Below, piece after piece: positions 20,475-28,874 of a stretch of 42,208 nt of DNA. Each line of letters opens with the position of its first letter. Positions within the stretch are counted from its first letter, which is position 1. The notes under the pieces were generated by a model. That model made no database searches. It had not been told where the DNA came from and was given only the letters and a program-made list of their open reading frames with translations. The translations under genes and the position numbers were made by a program. The stretch lies in the NCBI GenBank assembly GCA_018823135.1, contig JAHJJF010000094.1, forward strand, positions 1-42,208, in the 5' to 3' direction. Source of the stretch: Pseudomonadota bacterium (lineage in GTDB: Bacteria; Desulfobacterota; Desulfobulbia; Desulfobulbales; CALZHT01).

Positions 20475-20939
20475 ATGAACAAATCACTGGTGGAGATGGC
20501 CGCCGAACTTGTCCAGTCTCAATGTGCATCAAAAGGGATGACTACTGAAGAAATCACCTTTGCATTACAAAACACCTTTAAAGCCCTTCAAGGTCTGCAG
20601 GCAAACGAAGTCGGGCAACAGGGCACAGAGGGCACAATTTCCATGGAGTCCGGTATTGGAACGACTCTGAGTCCTGAAAAATCAATTCAGAAGAATAAGA
20701 TAGTCTGTCTTGAATGCGGGCAGGAATTCAGGATGCTTTCACCAAAGCACCTCAAATCACATGGACTGAGCGGCAAAGAATATCGTGTGAAATGGGGTTT
20801 TTCTCTCAGGCAGCCATTATGCGCCAAAGCGCTCTCCGAACGCCGGAAAAAAGCCGGGAAGGCAAGAGGGCTTCCGGAGAATCTCAGAAAGGCAATTGCC
20901 AAGAGAACCAAAGGGAAAAAGACTTCTGCAAAGAAGTGA
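20475..20939 (+). CDS. MucR/Ros family zinc-finger transcriptional regulator
   Basis: This 154-residue regulator has an N-terminal helical part, where MucR proteins oligomerise, and a C2H2-type zinc finger C78-x2-C81-x10-H92-x3-H96. The signature 'CLECGQEFRMLSPKHLKSHG' follows, then 'YRVKWGFSLRQPLCAKALSE', as in Ros/MucR. The tail is very basic (RRKKAGKARG, then KRTKGKKTSAKK). These proteins bind A/T-rich DNA and often silence many genes. The start at 20475 is chosen because AAGGAGG lies 6 bases before it; a GTG at 20406 extends the frame but has no support. It stands alone between two long A/T-rich spacers, which may contain its own operators. Confidence 0.93.
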   Translation: MNKSLVEMAAELVQSQCASKGMTTEEITFALQNTFKALQGLQANEVGQQGTEGTISMESGIGTTLSPEKSIQKNKIVCLECGQEFRMLSPKHLKSHGLSGKEYRVKWGFSLRQPLCAKALSERRKKAGKARGLPENLRKAIAKRTKGKKTSAKK

Positions 20940-21556
20940 TAATGATTGAAGCTGAGTTTACATAATTGGGGAACTGTAATTATCACATCGTGCAACAAAA
21001 AATGCATTGTTGAAATGTTTAATCTCTTTGTCCGAACATGAAATTGTTACCCTTTATGCATGTTCTTTTCGAGTTGTGGGAGTTTTCAATTCCTTTCCAC
21101 ACCGTATAAGTGTATCCACCAGTTGCTGCGGCTCTGACATATCTCATGCATGATTACGACTGTGCTCTTGCGAATATCGCCTGACTTTGATACAAAGGTA
21201 TCCTGTACTGTTTCAGGGTGCCTTTTTTATTTTATTGTGAAAAAACTGGTCCTCTCCGAGTCTTGTTTCTCTCTACTTGGCCAAGTCATAGTCAGTTGGC
21301 TTTACCTTAAAGTAATGTAATGTGTAAGGCCATGGGTACAAACTAACTGAGTAACCCTAGGATAATTTTAAAATCGTTATAGGGTTTGAAGATTTTGTGA
21401 GGTTGTGGTTGTTCTTAAAAACTTCGATGTCGTCGCTTAACTGTGCCTTTGATACGAGTTGTGTGTTTACAAACCCCTGCAATGGGGAAATCAAAGCCGT
21501 ATCCTCTGAGCCCGGCTCTTTACTAAAAATTTAAATCGAATATTTGTTTATCCGCT
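20940..21556. other. long spacer between mucR-like gene and murI
   Basis: These 617 bases contain a terminator at 21197-21240 that lies about 260 bases after the preceding stop, so an untranslated RNA may end there. The half after the terminator (21240-21556) contains no convincing ORF. murI itself lacks a recognisable Shine-Dalgarno, so its leader starts somewhere here. Confidence 0.45.
21197..21240 (+). terminator. Rho-independent terminator (G-U containing stem)
   Basis: GGTATCCTG (21197-21205) pairs with CAGGGTGCC (21214-21222) through nine pairs including two G-U, around an 8-base loop, followed by TTTTTTATTTTATT. Orientation is plus. The closest upstream plus-strand gene is the mucR-like gene, 257 bases away. 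Confidence 0.65.
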
Positions 21557-22354
21557 ATGATTGGTGTGTTTGATTCGGGAGTCGGGGGCATGACAGTCTC
21601 CCGGGCCATTGAGAAAATTTTGCCGGCTTATCGGCAGATATATTTCGGTGATCTTGCCAGGTCACCTTATGGCTCTAAAAGTCCTGCAACGATTACCCGG
21701 TATGCTTTCGAAAATACCGAATTTCTCTTATCCAAGGGGGCAACACTCATTGTCGTTGCCTGCAATTCCGCCGCAAGCGCCGCAGCTGAGAGTTTGAGCA
21801 AGGCATTTGATGTGCCGATTTTTGAAGTAATTACTCCGGCGGTTGAAAGTTCTGTAGAATCCTCCGCTAGGGGCCGCATAGGAGTAATCGGCACCCGGGC
21901 GACAATTATGAGCGGGATCTACGAGAAAAAAATCAGGGAAATCGATCCGTCATTTCAGGTGTTTTCAACGGAATGCCCTCTACTCGTTCCTCTGGTCGAA
22001 GAAGGTTGGAGCAACAAAAAGGAAACAAAAACGATTCTCAAGAGTTATCTCAATCCTCTCAAGTATAAAGCCATAGATACTCTGGTTCTGGGCTGCACGC
22101 ATTATCCGCTGCTAAAGGATTTGATTCAGCCGCGGATAGGAAAGGGGGTCAGGATCATCGATTCATCAGAAACAGTGGCGGCGGGCCTTAAGACTTATCT
22201 TGAAAATAATCCGGAAATTGCCGCTTCGTTATGTAAATCCGGTGTAAATCAATATTATGTTTCAGATATTACCGAGGCCGCCAAGATAACAGCAAGACGA
22301 ATTTTCGGGCGTGAAATCCTCCTGGAGCCTGTTTCCAGTTATAAAACAGGCTAA
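21557..22354 (+). CDS. murI: glutamate racemase
   Basis: This 265-residue enzyme makes D-glutamate for peptidoglycan. The N-terminus MIGVFDSGVGGMTV carries the substrate-binding Asp6-Ser7. The two catalytic cysteines are C69 (VACNSAA) and C180 (GCTHYP), each in its usual motif. Length fits the family. It is first in a compact plus-strand unit with lolA (18 bases on) and a radical SAM gene. No Shine-Dalgarno is evident before the ATG, but the start matches homologues. Confidence 0.97.
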   Translation: MIGVFDSGVGGMTVSRAIEKILPAYRQIYFGDLARSPYGSKSPATITRYAFENTEFLLSKGATLIVVACNSAASAAAESLSKAFDVPIFEVITPAVESSVESSARGRIGVIGTRATIMSGIYEKKIREIDPSFQVFSTECPLLVPLVEEGWSNKKETKTILKSYLNPLKYKAIDTLVLGCTHYPLLKDLIQPRIGKGVRIIDSSETVAAGLKTYLENNPEIAASLCKSGVNQYYVSDITEAAKITARRIFGREILLEPVSSYKTG

Positions 22355-22372
22355 ATCCAAGCGTGAATACAA

Positions 22373-23080
22373 ATGAACCACTCATATAAAACAATATTTG
22401 TTTTAACATTTGCTGCAATTTTTTTCGGTTTTACTTTTACCATGGCTCAGATTCCAGGACCATTGGAAATCGCCGGTTCTTTGCAGAAAGCATATGAAAA
22501 AACCAGGAGCATCTCTGCGGATTTTGACCAGAAGACAACGGTTACCATGACCGGCAGGGACAGGCATGGTGCTGGGAAACTGGTAATTCTCAAGCCCGGA
22601 CAAATGCGTTGGGATTATCTTACGCCTGATAAACAGGTGATCATCTGTGACGGTGAGACGATTACCATGTATTTTGAAAAGAACCGGCAATTGATCGCAG
22701 GCTCTGCCCGTGAGTATATCAGTTCAGATGTGACCTACTCATTTTTTACAGGGACCGGGGACATAATCAGGGATTTCGAGGTTAGTGCACCGGATGAGGA
22801 TATACTGACCTTGGAGAGTTCCCACGGTATTGATCAGAAAATACTCCCTGCCGATGATACCTATGTCATCAAACTCATCCCCAGAAAGCCGCATCCTCAG
22901 GTAGACTATATTCATGCATGGGTGCAGAAAGATTCTTTTTTAATCAGCAGGTTACAGATTGTCGATCTTTTTGGCAGCATCACCGACCTCACCTTTACTC
23001 ATATCAAAACCAATATCCCAGTTGATGCCGGATATTTCAATTTCGCCCCGCCCCCGGATACGGAGATTATAGTAAATTAA
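22373..23080 (+). CDS. lolA: outer-membrane lipoprotein carrier protein LolA
   Basis: This 235-residue periplasmic protein has a signal peptide (about 1-25, cleavage probably after TMA). Typical LolA sequence follows: 'LQKAYEKTRSISADFDQKT' at about 37-55, a basic turn, then GKLVILKPGQMRWDY and 'KQVIICDGETITMYFEKNRQ'. LolA ferries lipoproteins from LolCDE in the inner membrane to the outer membrane. Length is slightly above E. coli LolA (203). It ends directly against the radical SAM start (TAA then ATG), so the two are translationally linked. Confidence 0.93.
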   Translation: MNHSYKTIFVLTFAAIFFGFTFTMAQIPGPLEIAGSLQKAYEKTRSISADFDQKTTVTMTGRDRHGAGKLVILKPGQMRWDYLTPDKQVIICDGETITMYFEKNRQLIAGSAREYISSDVTYSFFTGTGDIIRDFEVSAPDEDILTLESSHGIDQKILPADDTYVIKLIPRKPHPQVDYIHAWVQKDSFLISRLQIVDLFGSITDLTFTHIKTNIPVDAGYFNFAPPPDTEIIVN

Positions 23081-24907
23081 ATGACCCGACCCAGGAGGGA
23101 CCAGTTCAGGATAGCGCTGATTGCCATGCCCTGGCACCTTTTTAACCGGCCATCTTTGCAGCTCGGAACCCTTAAAGCGTATATCGAGAAGGAATGCCCC
23201 TGGGTGGAAGTTACGGTTTTTCATCCATACCTTGAAGTTGCGGCAGCAATCGGCACCTCCTTGTACCAAAAAATCTCACTGGATGTCTGGGCGTCTGAAG
23301 CCCTCTACGGATCGATCCTCTTCCCGGACCAATTTGATACAAACAAAAAGCTGTTTGATCAGACATTCAATACGGATAAAAAGTCAAAGTCTATTGATTT
23401 TAGAGGACTCCGCAGGATTCTGGAAAGACAGCTTGAGGATTTTATTCAGAATAATGACTGGAGCGGTTTTCATCTTGCCGGGTTTTCAGTATGTTTCAGT
23501 CAGCTCCTCTCGTCATTGTCCGCAACAGAAAAATTAAAGGAGGTTTGCCCGGATTTGCCCATTGTTTTCGGGGGATCAACCTGTGTCCCGCATGTGTCGG
23601 AATCTTTATTGCGGGTATTTCCCCAGGTGGATTATGTTATCAGCGGTGAGGGGGAAAAGCCCCTTGTGAATCTCTGCGGGCACCTTTCGGGCCGTGACCG
23701 GGAATTGATTCCTCAGGTTCTTTGCCGTGATAAAGTTTCAAAAGTTTCCCTTGATATTATTGTTGGATCGGGCCAGCTCAAGGATCTTTCATCATTACCG
23801 GTTCCTGATTACACCGGCTATTTCAAGGAGATGGCAGTCTGCTTTGCTCATGAACCCTTTATCCCTGAATTACCCGTTGAGTTCTCCAGGGGATGCTGGT
23901 GGGGTAAATGTTCGTTTTGCAACCTGAATCTGGAATGGCGAGGGTATAGATCAAAGAAGCCGGAACAGATGCTGCAGGAAGTTGAAATCCTTGCCGACAG
24001 ATTCAATTGTCTTGATTTTTGCTTTGCTGATAACGCCCTTCCGGTGCTGGATGCCGTTGTTTTTTTTAAAGAAACCGGTAAATCTCAACAGGATTTTCGT
24101 TTTTTTGCTGAAGTAAGGGTCAACCAGTGCGGGGAAAACCTTGCCTTTATGAAAAATGGCGGGCTTGCGGTTGTTCAGGTTGGGATTGAGGCATTAAGCG
24201 ACGGGTTGCTCAAGAAACTTACCAAGGGTGCCACGGTTATCGAAAATATCGCGGTGATGCGGGATGCTCTTTCTCTGGGGATAGAGCTTGAGGGCAATTT
24301 GATTGTCGAGTTTCCAGGAAGCACCGAAGATGAAGTGGATGAAACCCTCAAAAATCTCGATTATGTCCTGCCGTTTCGGCCGTTGTCCACAGCCGCTTTT
24401 TTTCTTGGGCATGGCAGCCCGGTAGCATGTGACCCGGAGAAATACGGTATCCGGGCAATTGTTCATCATTGGAAGAACAGGGCGATTTTTCCTGCTCATG
24501 TATTGAGTAATCTCAAGCTGCTTATCGATGATTATCACGGCGACCGTGTGAAGCAGAGAGCACGCTGGAGTCCGGTAGTCAAAAAGGTGTTGGCGTGGCG
24601 TAAATTTCATCAGGAACGCCAGAGTTCAATGTTGGAAAAGCCCATGCTCTCCTATCGTGACGGAGGAAGTTTCCTGATTATCAGGCAGGAAATTCCGGGA
24701 CAGTCCGTTCTTCATCATCGGCTGAAGGGAGTATCACGGAAGATATATCTGTTTTGCATGGAAATCTCTGATATTGACGCGATGGAAGCCCATTTCGGCA
24801 TAGACAGGATGAAACTTTCGGCTTTTCTCGGCGATCTTGTCGACAAAAAACTTATGTTTACTGACGGCAAGCGATTTCTGGCCCTGGCTGTCAGGAAGGG
24901 AAAATAG
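23081..24907 (+). CDS. cobalamin-binding-type radical SAM protein (RiPP-maturase-like)
   Basis: This 608-residue protein has an N-terminal B12-binding-like Rossmann domain (about 10-200; 'GFSVCFSQLLSSL', IVFGGS and the usual DYVISGEGEKPL at 184-195). A radical SAM domain (about 265-470) follows, with the cluster motif RGCWWGKCSFC giving C272, C277 and C280. A helical C-terminal domain (about 480-608) completes it. The 'RGCWWG' motif is typical of the radical SAM group named for RiPP maturation. The cysteine spacing is CX4CX2C rather than CX3CX2C, read directly from the DNA. The reaction is unknown: methylation or other radical chemistry on a peptide or cofactor is inferred. It abuts lolA, and cobalamin genes follow 264 bases later. 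No RiPP precursor is recognised nearby. Confidence 0.85.
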   Translation: MTRPRRDQFRIALIAMPWHLFNRPSLQLGTLKAYIEKECPWVEVTVFHPYLEVAAAIGTSLYQKISLDVWASEALYGSILFPDQFDTNKKLFDQTFNTDKKSKSIDFRGLRRILERQLEDFIQNNDWSGFHLAGFSVCFSQLLSSLSATEKLKEVCPDLPIVFGGSTCVPHVSESLLRVFPQVDYVISGEGEKPLVNLCGHLSGRDRELIPQVLCRDKVSKVSLDIIVGSGQLKDLSSLPVPDYTGYFKEMAVCFAHEPFIPELPVEFSRGCWWGKCSFCNLNLEWRGYRSKKPEQMLQEVEILADRFNCLDFCFADNALPVLDAVVFFKETGKSQQDFRFFAEVRVNQCGENLAFMKNGGLAVVQVGIEALSDGLLKKLTKGATVIENIAVMRDALSLGIELEGNLIVEFPGSTEDEVDETLKNLDYVLPFRPLSTAAFFLGHGSPVACDPEKYGIRAIVHHWKNRAIFPAHVLSNLKLLIDDYHGDRVKQRARWSPVVKKVLAWRKFHQERQSSMLEKPMLSYRDGGSFLIIRQEIPGQSVLHHRLKGVSRKIYLFCMEISDIDAMEAHFGIDRMKLSAFLGDLVDKKLMFTDGKRFLALAVRKGK

Positions 24908-24920
24908 CCCGCATTTCTTT

Positions 24921-24934
24921 ACCAAATATTTGGT
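24921..24934. repeat. perfect 14-bp palindrome after the radical SAM gene
   Basis: ACCAAATATTTGGT is a perfect palindrome 14 bases past the stop. It lies in the 263-base spacer before cobU, just ahead of a 28-codon ORF (24940-25026) lacking a strong ribosome site. It could bind a dimeric regulator; nothing identifies which. Confidence 0.4.
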
Positions 24935-25170
24935 GAAAAATGGATAATTCATTGAAACATGTGTTTTCTGGATTGATGCATATTTTGTTCGATAGAACAC
25001 AGTATTATAAGATAATAATTTCTTAAGCATGCCACTTATTGGCCAAGGGCGAGACGAACCAGCCACATCTCCTGTGTCGCAGGGAGTTCAGCATACCAGA
25101 AGTAGATCTAAACTCCCTGTTTCTTGTATCTGTAGCTGTCTCGACTCGTGAGAAATACGGGATAAAACTG

Positions 25171-25728
25171 ATGGTTGAAGAAAAGAAGCAATTGTTTGTT
25201 CTGGGCGGTTGCAGGAGCGGCAAGAGTCGTTTTGCCGAACAATGGGTGCGGGAGCATTTTGAACGAAGGATTTTTCTTGCCACTCTTGAAGTGCGCGATG
25301 AAGCTGAAATGGCGCATCGGGTCGCCCTGCACCGTCAGAGTAGACAGGGGGGCTGGACAACCCTGGAAGAGCCGGTGAACATTGTGGATTCTATTATAAA
25401 TAATGATACAAAAACCGATGTGTTTCTTGTAGATTGCCTCACGCTCTGGATTACAAATCTGATGCTTGGCGGGCTTACTGATAATGAAATTGAGGGTAAA
25501 GTTTCATCATTGGTTGCGGCAATGGGTTTGATAACCAGTTCAATTGTCCTGGTAGCCAATGAAGTCGGCCTGGGAATCGTGCCGGAGTCTCCCATGGGAA
25601 GGCGATTCCGTGATCTTGCCGGTTGGACGAATCAGCAGGTTGCGCAAGTCTGCTCACAGGTGATTTTCATGGCAGCAGGTCTCCCCCTGACTCTTAAGGG
25701 ACCGGATACAGGATTCAGACTCAAGTAG
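25171..25728 (+). CDS. cobU: bifunctional adenosylcobinamide kinase / adenosylcobinamide-phosphate guanylyltransferase
   Basis: This 185-residue enzyme phosphorylates adenosylcobinamide and then attaches GMP in cobalamin nucleotide-loop assembly. The P-loop LGGCRSGKSRFAE (11-23), the catalytic-region HRVALHR with 'GGWTTLEEP', and LVDCLTLWITNLML are the family signatures. The C-terminus 'GRRFRDLAGWTNQQVAQVC' is also typical. The start at 25171 is chosen because homology and the normal length (about 180) begin there; the frame is open back to a TTG at 25039 but that part is unlike CobU. No good ribosome site was found. cobD follows 75 bases on. Confidence 0.92.
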   Translation: MVEEKKQLFVLGGCRSGKSRFAEQWVREHFERRIFLATLEVRDEAEMAHRVALHRQSRQGGWTTLEEPVNIVDSIINNDTKTDVFLVDCLTLWITNLMLGGLTDNEIEGKVSSLVAAMGLITSSIVLVANEVGLGIVPESPMGRRFRDLAGWTNQQVAQVCSQVIFMAAGLPLTLKGPDTGFRLK

Positions 25729-25803
25729 TCAGAAGCTGATAAATTTTCATAAAACGTATATCATTTTTTAAAACCTTAAACTCGACACATATAAACATCT
25801 GAA

Positions 25804-26889
25804 ATGAATTCAGCGACTAAAACAATCACCTCCCATGGCGGGGACATAATTGCAACTGCACGGCAACTGGGTTGCAGAATTGATGAATTAATTGATATGA
25901 GCAGTAACCTCACACCGTTCGGAATGGCGCCTGGACTCAGAGAGGCGCTTATCGACAGGCTTGATGAAATCGCCTTTCTTCCGGAGATCGGCAGCGAAAC
26001 GCTGTGCAGGTTTTTTGACGAAAAATATGGACTTAATGGCTGCAGAGTCTTTGCCGGAAGCGGCACCACCGAGTTCATTTTTGCGATTCCCGCGGCATTT
26101 CAAAGCAAAAAAGCAGTGATTGTAAATCCTACCTATTCGGATTATCTGCTGGCCTGTAAATGGGCCGGAGTGCAAACAATCCGCTTTGATCTGAAACCGG
26201 AAGAGAATTTTGTCCTCGATCTTGGGCGTTTACGTAAAAGTCTTACCGGGGGAGAATTGGTATTTCTCTGCAACCCCAATAATCCCACCGGCGTACTCAC
26301 CGCCTCGGCACAACTTCATGAATGTATCAGCAGCCATCCCGACACAATGTTTGTGGTGGACGAGTCATATCTGCCCTTCACCAGTGAGCCGTCATTGTTG
26401 AAATTTTCAGTGCCGGATAATCTGTTACTGCTTCGTTCATTTTCTAAAATTTATGGAATGCCCGGACTGCGTCTGGGATTTCTCATAACTTCCGAGACCA
26501 ATGCCCCGGCGATGATGAACCGCCGAAAGCCTTGGGAAGTGAACAGGATGGCGCAGATTGCCGGGGAATTTCTTTTGCAGAAAGCCGATGAGTATATCCA
26601 GGATGTGCAGCGATTCATAGCCTCGGAGGTCAAGATTTTTGTTGAAGGGTTATCTGTCCTGCCGGATATTGAGGTGGTTCCCGGGGCGGCAAATTTTATT
26701 CTGAGCCGTTTGAACGGCCCGATTTCCGCATCTGTCCTGCGGGAAAGAATGCTGGATAAAAAGATAATGATCAGAAACTGCGATAATTTCACCGGACTTG
26801 ACCACAGGTATTTTCGCGTCTCGTTAAAAGATCAGGAGAACAATAAGGTCTGCAGGAACGCCCTGCAGGAAATACTGGGAAACAGATAA
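25804..26889 (+). CDS. cobD: CobD-like threonine-phosphate decarboxylase (PLP-dependent)
   Basis: This 361-residue fold-type I aminotransferase begins with 'SHGGDI' (10-15), which is typical of CobD, the enzyme that makes (R)-1-amino-2-propanol phosphate for cobalamin. PLP-binding features are NPNNPTG (157-163), D186 (FVVDES) and the Schiff-base Lys215 in SFSKIYGMPG. Histidinol-phosphate aminotransferase is a close relative and the main alternative; the HGG start and the cobU neighbour favour CobD. The ATG directly follows the spacer after cobU, with no strong ribosome site. Confidence 0.85.
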   Translation: MNSATKTITSHGGDIIATARQLGCRIDELIDMSSNLTPFGMAPGLREALIDRLDEIAFLPEIGSETLCRFFDEKYGLNGCRVFAGSGTTEFIFAIPAAFQSKKAVIVNPTYSDYLLACKWAGVQTIRFDLKPEENFVLDLGRLRKSLTGGELVFLCNPNNPTGVLTASAQLHECISSHPDTMFVVDESYLPFTSEPSLLKFSVPDNLLLLRSFSKIYGMPGLRLGFLITSETNAPAMMNRRKPWEVNRMAQIAGEFLLQKADEYIQDVQRFIASEVKIFVEGLSVLPDIEVVPGAANFILSRLNGPISASVLRERMLDKKIMIRNCDNFTGLDHRYFRVSLKDQENNKVCRNALQEILGNR

Positions 26890-26936
26890 CAGCTGTAACT
26901 CGTGAAGTTTGTCGAAAAATAATTAAGGAATTATTA

Positions 26937-27449
26937 ATGAAGATTGCAATACTATCAGACACCCATGATCATATATTGAACCTGCGGGCTGCGGTAACTT
27001 TTTGTAATTCATATGGGGTGCGGATGATCATTCACTGCGGAGATCTGATTTCGCCGTTCATGCTCGATGAGCTTGCCCGATTCGGTGGCGCGGTTCATTT
27101 GATATACGGTAATAATGCAGGGGATCAGCATCTGATTTCATCCTGGTGTGGAGTACGCTTCCCTTCAGTTACCCATCACGGCGTGCTTGGCGCCGTGGAA
27201 GCGGGCGGCAGAAAGATTGCATTTACTCATTATCCGGAAATGGCCAGGGGGCTTGCTTCACAGGGTATGTTTGATGCGGTCTGCTGCGGACATAATCATC
27301 GATATCATGTTGAAAAAATCGGCAAGACGCTATTGATCAACCCTGGCGAGCTGCTGGGCAAGGATGGGCAGCCGGGATTCGGAATTCTTGCCTGTTCCTC
27401 AATGGAAGTTGAGCGGGTTGATATCGGCTTGCAGATTGAAGGATGTTAA
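26937..27449 (+). CDS. YfcE/MJ0936 family metallophosphoesterase
   Basis: This 170-residue calcineurin-type phosphodiesterase has the full set of metal-binding motifs: D8 and H10 (ILSDTHDH), D37 (HCGDL), the GNN at about 59-61, 'THYPEM' near 97 and CGHNHR near 118-123. The family hydrolyses phosphodiesters in vitro and its physiological substrate is unknown. It is 47 bases after cobD, with ATTAAGGAATTATT before the ATG. Link to cobalamin genes is by position only. Confidence 0.9.
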   Translation: MKIAILSDTHDHILNLRAAVTFCNSYGVRMIIHCGDLISPFMLDELARFGGAVHLIYGNNAGDQHLISSWCGVRFPSVTHHGVLGAVEAGGRKIAFTHYPEMARGLASQGMFDAVCCGHNHRYHVEKIGKTLLINPGELLGKDGQPGFGILACSSMEVERVDIGLQIEGC

Positions 27450-27472
27450 GCGGATTGAATATTTTTTCCAGT

Positions 27473-27500
27473 TTGAGAAATCATTTTTTACGGGTATATC
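27473..27500 (+). promoter_or_regulatory. candidate promoter of the S1-like gene
   Basis: TTGAGA (27473-27478) and TATATC (27495-27500) are 16 bases apart, about 140 bases before the S1-like start. A 22-codon ORF with GGGAG before its ATG (27553-27621) lies in the resulting leader. Both are unproven. Confidence 0.35.
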
Positions 27501-27641
27501 ATGCAGAAAGAAATTGCTTTGGCTTAAAAGATATCTGACAGGGAGTTATTCGATGGGTGCTGAGTCTGTTGATATGACAAATTATCTGCAATTCCATCGG
27601 TGGTTGACTAAAGTTTATTGAATGATCAGAGGATTAAATTG

Positions 27642-28874
27642 ATGCAGGACAAAAAATTTGAAAATGGCGAAACATCTCCCACAGATTCCGATTCCGGCAT
27701 GGAAAGCTTTGCGGATCTGCTCGAAAAAAACCTGGGCGAGGAAAAACCCCTTGAGCCGGGGCAGAAGGTAGAAGCGGAAATTGTCAGGATTGCCAAGGAC
27801 TGGGTATTTATCGATGTCGGTGGCAAGAGCGAAGGCAGTCTGGCCGTGAGTGAACTTCTTGACAAAGATGGGAATATTTCGATCAAAGAAGGAGATGTAA
27901 TTGAGGCATATTTTTTATCATCCAGGAAGAATGAAATGCTTTTTACCTCCAAAATGGGCGGGCTTGCAGCCCAGGCCCATCTTGAGGATATATTTCACAA
28001 TAGAATTCCGGTTGAAGGCTATGTTGAAAAGGAAATCAAAGGTGGTTTTCAGGTGACCATCGCCGGCAGCACCAGAGCTTTTTGTCCATTTTCGCAAATG
28101 GATACAAGACGTGTTGAAAAAAGCGATGACTATATCGGCGAAAAGTTTCTGTTCCGGATAAGTGAGTATAAAGAAAAGGGCAGAAATATCATTGTTTCCC
28201 GCCGGGTGCTTCTCGAAGAAGAGCGTCGATTGAAAAAAGAAGAGTTGCGGAAGGTTATCAAGCCCGGTGATGTGGTCTCCGGAACTATTACCTCGGTGCG
28301 GGATTTCGGTGCTTTTGTGGATATCGGCGGCATAGAGGGGCTTATTCCGGTATCGGAAATCGGCTGGGGCAGGGTTGAGGATATTCATGGCGCGGTGCAT
28401 GCGGGCCAGGAGGTAAAGGTCACGGTGATGAATCTGGACTGGGAAAACGACAAGTTTTCGTTCAGCCTTAAGGAATCCTTGCCGGACCCCTTTGATGCGG
28501 CCTCAGGGAAATATCCTGAAGGGACAACCCATGCCGGTACTGTTGCACGGCTCACAAATTTCGGTGCCTTCGTGACCTTGGAGCCAGGGGTTGACGGGCT
28601 GGTGCATATTTCAAAGCTCGGTGGCGGCAGAAAAATCAATCATCCCCGTGAAGTGCTTGAAACCGGGCAGGTGATCGATGTCCGCGTCGAAAGTATTGAC
28701 CTTGAAAACAGAAGAATTTCCCTGGCGCTTGAAGGTGTGGCCCGGGAAGAAACTGACGAGAAAAAAGCAGAGAAGGAATACGGTAACTATATTAAGCAGT
28801 CCACCACAGAACCTCCCAAATCAATGGGAACCCTCGGGGACCTGTTGAAGGCCAAGCTCGACAGCAATAAATAA
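27642..28874 (+). CDS. 30S ribosomal protein S1-like protein with four S1 domains
   Basis: This 410-residue RNA-binding protein has an acidic N-terminal tail (1-37) and four S1 OB-fold repeats at about 38-105, 120-190, 207-277 and 292-364. The last two are the most canonical ('GTITSVRDFGAFVDIGGIEG' and 'GTVARLTNFGAFVTLEPGVD'). Proteobacterial S1 normally has six repeats (about 557 residues), so this is either a shortened S1 or a paralogue. The ATG at 27642 is preferred because AGAGG lies 9 bases upstream; a TTG at 27618 also opens the frame but has no ribosome site. It converges on the chemoreceptor gene across an inverted repeat. Confidence 0.88.
   Translation: MQDKKFENGETSPTDSDSGMESFADLLEKNLGEEKPLEPGQKVEAEIVRIAKDWVFIDVGGKSEGSLAVSELLDKDGNISIKEGDVIEAYFLSSRKNEMLFTSKMGGLAAQAHLEDIFHNRIPVEGYVEKEIKGGFQVTIAGSTRAFCPFSQMDTRRVEKSDDYIGEKFLFRISEYKEKGRNIIVSRRVLLEEERRLKKEELRKVIKPGDVVSGTITSVRDFGAFVDIGGIEGLIPVSEIGWGRVEDIHGAVHAGQEVKVTVMNLDWENDKFSFSLKESLPDPFDAASGKYPEGTTHAGTVARLTNFGAFVTLEPGVDGLVHISKLGGGRKINHPREVLETGQVIDVRVESIDLENRRISLALEGVAREETDEKKAEKEYGNYIKQSTTEPPKSMGTLGDLLKAKLDSNK

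Follow-up and report, generated by a model that had tools for sequence, protein, structure and literature searches.

Cobalamin (B12)-dependent radical SAM methyltransferases are best compared here through systems that act on polypeptides. PoyB/PoyC and the bottromycin C-methyltransferases, for example, are enzymes of this type that modify ribosomal peptides and, like the enzyme described here, carry an unconventional cluster motif; the motif is given as Cx7Cx2C in the portions of the reviews available to us, as against CX4CX2C here, the comparison being one of published descriptions. Others modify a native enzyme and no natural product. Mmp10 is presented in the accessible text as catalysing a B12-dependent radical SAM C-methylation of methyl-coenzyme M reductase, and MgmA, by the title of structure 9ccb a B12-dependent radical SAM methylase of the same reductase, is a fold match to our enzyme, although likeness in sequence to the glutamine methylase model for this reductase (TIGR04014) is weak, at 42.6 bits with a cut-off of 360. 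The curated family to which our enzyme belongs is TIGR03975 (rSAM_ocin_1, "RiPP maturation radical SAM C-methyltransferase"), within which it falls in a clade of its own, called the orphan clade below. Nothing recognisable as this clade appeared in the portions of the open-licence literature available to us.

The gene lies in a window of 42,208 nucleotides, by which we mean the whole stretch of DNA that was analysed (Table 1). Its ATG abuts the TAA of lolA (23078-23080; spacing 0), its reading frame is intact, and a gap of 266 bp lies between it and cobU. An earlier, sequence-only reading had described a radical SAM gene touching the lolA stop codon, followed by cobU and cobD and carrying a CX4CX2C motif, all of which is borne out by coordinates and motif (RGCWWGKCSFC). 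The same reading called the enzyme "fused" into the murI-lolA unit, a wording that we do not retain, as the enzyme is a separate 608-aa open reading frame and not a fusion protein. It is a real gene, as judged from its TIGR03975 score, the wide occurrence of matches in the host order, and the low dN/dS in relatives. For the cobD-like gene downstream, TIGR01140 was the best model despite a score below its cut-off.

Table 1. Positions of the orphan radical SAM gene, its domains and its neighbours in the window.
Feature	Position	Strand	Remarks
Orphan cobalamin-type radical SAM gene, 608 aa	23081..24907	+	TIGR03975 family; clade consensus CxFCNLNLQW
N-terminal cobalamin-binding-domain-like Rossmann region (putative), ~residues 1-230	23081..23770	+	suggested by full-length TIGR03975 match and OxsB/TokK/CysS/MgmA fold matches
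Radical SAM domain PF04055, residues 266-424	23876..24352	+	Pfam
Cluster motif RGCWWGKCSFCNLNLEW, residues 270-286; C272, C277, C280 in CX4CX2C	23888..23938	+	
C-terminal beta3-alpha3 winged-helix region	24644..24892	+	predicted, moderate confidence
lolA	22373..23080	+	usual direct 5' neighbour of enzyme gene across host order
murI, glutamate racemase	21557..22354	+	upstream neighbour kept with or without enzyme
cobU	25174..25728	+	3' neighbour in part of host order
cobD-like aminotransferase	25804..26889	+	TIGR01140 256.8 bits, cut-off 290.55

The enzyme scored 350.6 bits against TIGR03975 (NCBIfam cut-off 281.85), residues 11-604 aligning with positions 1-606 of the 606-position model, so that the RiPP-type radical SAM family proposed from sequence is upheld by a curated model over its full length. 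Pfam recognised the radical SAM domain alone and found no B12-binding domain in the enzyme; the three cysteines of the cluster motif within PF04055 are invariant in 66/66 full-length orthologs. The family nevertheless divides. All 17 classical proteins scored 570.9-662.4 bits and exceeded the cut-off, as against 320.8-358.1 bits for four members of the orphan clade scored singly (own enzyme included). Matches to TIGR03975 at E<=1e-10 were obtained in 35/35 orphan-clade members submitted, scores against the cut-off being known for the four scored singly. In a tree of 83 proteins, built by a quick method with SH-aLRT support and no bootstrap, a branch with a support of 100 split the 66 full-length orthologs from the 17 classical rows, and the 29 rows of the host order grouped together, again at 100. 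The cysteine motif and most invariant residues are common to the enzyme and three classical sequences, yet the orphan clade has the consensus CNLNLQW where the classical proteins have C[GS]LN, and clade invariants such as Q27, W286, T422, G443 and W496 are absent from the three classical sequences compared. Thus, the clade differs from classical members in its separate place in the tree, in its far lower model scores, and in that no adjoining leader-peptide gene was found.

The spacing of the cysteines, by contrast, does not distinguish the clade. Four residues follow the first cysteine in 48 of 68 orthologs and 8-17 in the other 20, while the 17 classical proteins have spacings of 4, 7 or 9; the value of 4 occurs in four of these (two each in genomes G071 and G143), at 3.4-9.5 kb from a Nif11-leader gene. 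Since the spacing is labile and is shared by classical proteins near a Nif11 leader, CX4CX2C, which the sequence-only reading had singled out as a special feature, was rejected as a diagnostic character and is no mark of a role outside RiPP maturation. The clusters in these two genomes (L239 4893-14376 in G071; L240 4466-13959 in G143) each hold four TIGR03975 genes, in which the first cysteine spacing is 4, 7 or 9, with a Nif11 leader encoded some 2 kb 5' of the first of them.

Matches to the enzyme (E<=1e-60) were present in 30 of 58 genomes of the host order and, in a larger sample, in 114 of 193 genomes, spread over 39 of 62 genera; our own genome counts in both samples. The 58-genome scoring counts among the enzyme-less genomes one (G033) that carries a truncated copy and one (G008) whose contig stops after lolA. 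A single match was found in 110 of the 114 genomes; G476, G529 and G551 give two each, which represent parts of it on two contigs, while G519 has one full and one partial match. Across the phylum, 66 of 395 genomes gave a match at E<=1e-35. An ortholog is present in 56 of these, with 38-54% identity when our own genome is set aside, and the other 10 have more distant, classical members alone (25-31%); as the query was the orphan protein and three candidates were scored per genome, distant and classical members are undercounted here. The dN/dS was 0.165-0.201 in 5/5 close ortholog pairs, a set that excludes the window's own copy, and these pairs are under purifying selection. The orphan clade split early and has apparently been inherited vertically, usually in single copy and outside any recognisable RiPP gene cluster.

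Structure prediction adds qualified support for the domain layout. The full-length model (mean pLDDT 68.9; 22 sequences, three of them covering the ends) has as its nearest solved structures OxsB, TokK, MgmA and CysS (E<=2.6e-6), all cobalamin-dependent radical SAM enzymes, and its N-terminal Rossmann domain may accordingly be regarded as a putative cobalamin-binding domain. The best of these matches, OxsB, catalyses a ring contraction rather than a methylation, by the available text of PMC13331322. The C-terminus was predicted, with moderate confidence, as a beta3-alpha3 winged helix both in this model and in a separate model of the domain (mean pLDDT 69.4, built from three sequences). The accessible part of PMC12710340 gives beta3-alpha3 as the strict topology of the RiPP recognition element (RRE). 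VIA-align matched the domain to the RRE TbiB1 (5v1v) with a Z of 6.1 over 74 residues, a score equalled by MarR, ArsR, Zalpha and other DNA-binding winged helices, and Foldseek returned no match for the domain at E<=0.001. The predicted topology is thus RRE-like, and perhaps the domain binds a peptide.

Family membership, the predicted RRE-like C-terminus and the gene order around some classical relatives would all be in keeping with a role in maturing one dedicated short RiPP, from a precursor gene elsewhere in the genome with a leader of a type other than Nif11 or NHLP; on balance we think this unlikely. The sequence-only reading had seen no precursor gene, and that observation now extends from the window to orthologous loci, where two leader families and small-ORF clustering revealed none that is conserved. 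Indeed, clustering of 1174 small ORFs (18-130 aa), all lying no more than 4 kb from the enzyme, over 31 loci in the order and 37 outside it gave no conserved precursor-like ORF; those recurring in at least three loci were RemA-like and FmdB-like genes (named by reading), antisense shadows, and matches among close relatives, and the clusters also gave a gene of ~105 aa from two close relatives. Our own genome has no Nif11 leader (TIGR03798) at E<=0.01, and none adjoins an ortholog in 80 genomes (30 in the order, 50 outside). Leaders over the cut-off occur in 2 of the 58 genomes of the order, both scored as lacking an ortholog, and in 2 of the 50 ortholog genomes outside it, ~39 kb away in G376 and on a different contig in G235. 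Among the enzyme-bearing 30, weaker matches are ~2 Mb off in G040 and otherwise on different contigs, and the presence of Nif11-like matches (E<=0.01) does not follow that of the enzyme, being seen in 11/30 genomes with it versus 12/28 without. In 3 of 10 classical genomes (G071, G143, G156), however, the closest classical gene is 1.7-2.0 kb from a Nif11 leader over the cut-off; the other seven have none either at the threshold used, so leader tests of this kind miss many. NHLP leaders (TIGR03793) were found in none of 70 ortholog genomes, own included and 10 of the 50 outside genomes left aside; this is a weak control because, in the 2 of 10 classical genomes with an NHLP leader over the cut-off, it is ~20 kb or more from the radical SAM genes or on another contig. 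For the distant peptide suggested by the sequence-only reading, two leader types were sought in our own genome, with neither found; such a peptide may yet be the target. The cohesion of the host order in the tree and the constraint on the gene are also, in our judgement, unlike a typical natural-product cluster.

The genomic neighbourhood invites other explanations. The sequence-only reading took the lolA linkage as a hint of a substrate in the cell envelope, and an enzyme that works with LolA on an envelope lipid or lipoprotein would be consistent with lolA lying directly 5' on the same strand in 93 of the 99 genomes that could be evaluated in the order (those of the 114 with lolA among the matches listed, the remaining 15 being dropped), with a median gap between matches of 36 bases. 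The linkage is thus not peculiar to our genome, and the stop of lolA lies -4 to 0 bases from the enzyme start in 13 of 29 loci measured (L082 by its ATG), the distance being wider elsewhere. Weak likeness to HpnJ, HpnR and ladderane-type B12 radical SAM models, all far under cut-off, points the same way. However, murI also adjoins lolA in 25 of the 26 lolA loci that represent enzyme-less genomes by our scoring, where the next tested gene is cobU, cobD, a yfcE-like gene, S1 or none (one of these loci, L127, has part of the enzyme gene at a contig end, and another, L126, stops just past lolA). LolA and the enzyme are not adjacent in six of the 99 genomes (G480, G540, G474, G523, G534, G549), unrelated genes sit between them in four genomes, and among the loci read L094 lacks lolA beside the enzyme. 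Outside the order the neighbours are different. By Pfam, one group has an HtpX-type M48 protease, an EamA transporter and a TPR-like protein, and at other loci there are purine, SecD-like and further genes, named by sequence reading; in L222 lolA is three genes upstream. The murI-lolA block is conserved in general, and since it persists without the enzyme and gives way to other neighbours outside the order, linkage by itself does not make LolA a partner. Nor does LolA have any residue specific to enzyme-bearing genomes (29 versus 23 sequences), and we consider an envelope substrate improbable and the inference from linkage unsupported. A role in cobalamin synthesis or salvage appears more improbable still. 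It would suit the cobU and/or cobD genes 3' of the enzyme in part of the order and a weak match to the lower-ligand enzyme BzaD (46.5 bits, cut-off 450), yet families f4 and f12 of the order mostly have the enzyme with no cobU-cobD at the locus, L139, L141 and L144 have cobU-cobD with no enzyme, and over its full length the enzyme matches the peptide family TIGR03975. No Rfam cobalamin riboswitch was matched in the window at gathering score, and a relaxed search of 20900-27700 gave one match (E 0.76), within the cobD-like gene.

We return to a polypeptide substrate, and propose that the enzyme is probably a cobalamin-dependent radical SAM C-methyltransferase of the TIGR03975 family that modifies a polypeptide encoded elsewhere, outside a recognisable RiPP cluster. 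In such a scheme the three cysteines would hold a 4Fe-4S cluster at which SAM is cleaved to the 5'-deoxyadenosyl radical, methylcobalamin bound in the N-terminal Rossmann domain would provide the methyl group, and the RRE-like winged helix would dock a polypeptide encoded elsewhere on the chromosome, an unactivated carbon of one of its residues becoming methylated. The cofactors, the methyl transfer, the polypeptide substrate and the action in trans are what we infer from family, motif and predicted fold. The single copy of the gene, its mostly fixed place and the finding of no peptide gene nearby suggest as its target either a protein native to the cell or a peptide encoded at a distance. It is tempting to speculate further, by analogy with Mmp10 and MgmA, that early in the clade a RiPP-type B12 radical SAM methylase, equipped with an RRE-like domain, was co-opted for housekeeping C-methylation of a conserved native protein, in many families of the phylum; we regard this as plausible, if somewhat short of probable.

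Annotation by TIGR03975 labels genes of this kind as RiPP maturation. Given the scores of the orphan clade, far below the classical ones, and the finding of no leader gene beside it, that annotation may point to RiPP pathways that are absent from these loci, and behind the label a probable polypeptide-modifying enzyme may be overlooked. Few B12 radical SAM methylations are known outside natural products and methyl-coenzyme M reductase. If the substrate proves to be a native protein, the orphan clade would add one more.

Several candidates for a substrate or partner were considered and rejected. S1, like LolA, has no residues specific to enzyme-bearing genomes; MurI has four and MucR six, which we take as shared ancestry, and neither is retained as a substrate. 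The TPR-like protein belongs to a family whose members, of ~280 aa, match TPR models weakly and share a conserved DWMVGxxFHEAMKLKEN stretch; their genes lie directly 3' of the enzyme in a number of families beyond the host order (L212 8222-9055, L219 594-1439 and seven other loci). In the host order, 11 of 58 genomes have it, our own not among them, and its presence is out of step with that of the enzyme (6/30 genomes with the enzyme and 5/28 without, one of the five being G033 with its truncated copy); it was rejected there as a partner.

Some further observations concern individual genomes. With the enzyme turned to the + strand, the insertion between lolA and the enzyme in G480 (L247 2484-10676) resembles, by sequence reading, a defence or restriction-type island, and that in G523 (L246 2807-3365) is a small gene pair, possibly a toxin-antitoxin system. 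Our own genome also encodes, on another contig (C84; L002 1111-3105), a further radical SAM protein of the B12 type (665 aa), whose motif RGCYWNKCSFC again shows CX4CX2C spacing; it scores 127.4 bits against TIGR03975, below the cut-off, and has as its runner-up model a PhpK-type P-methyltransferase.
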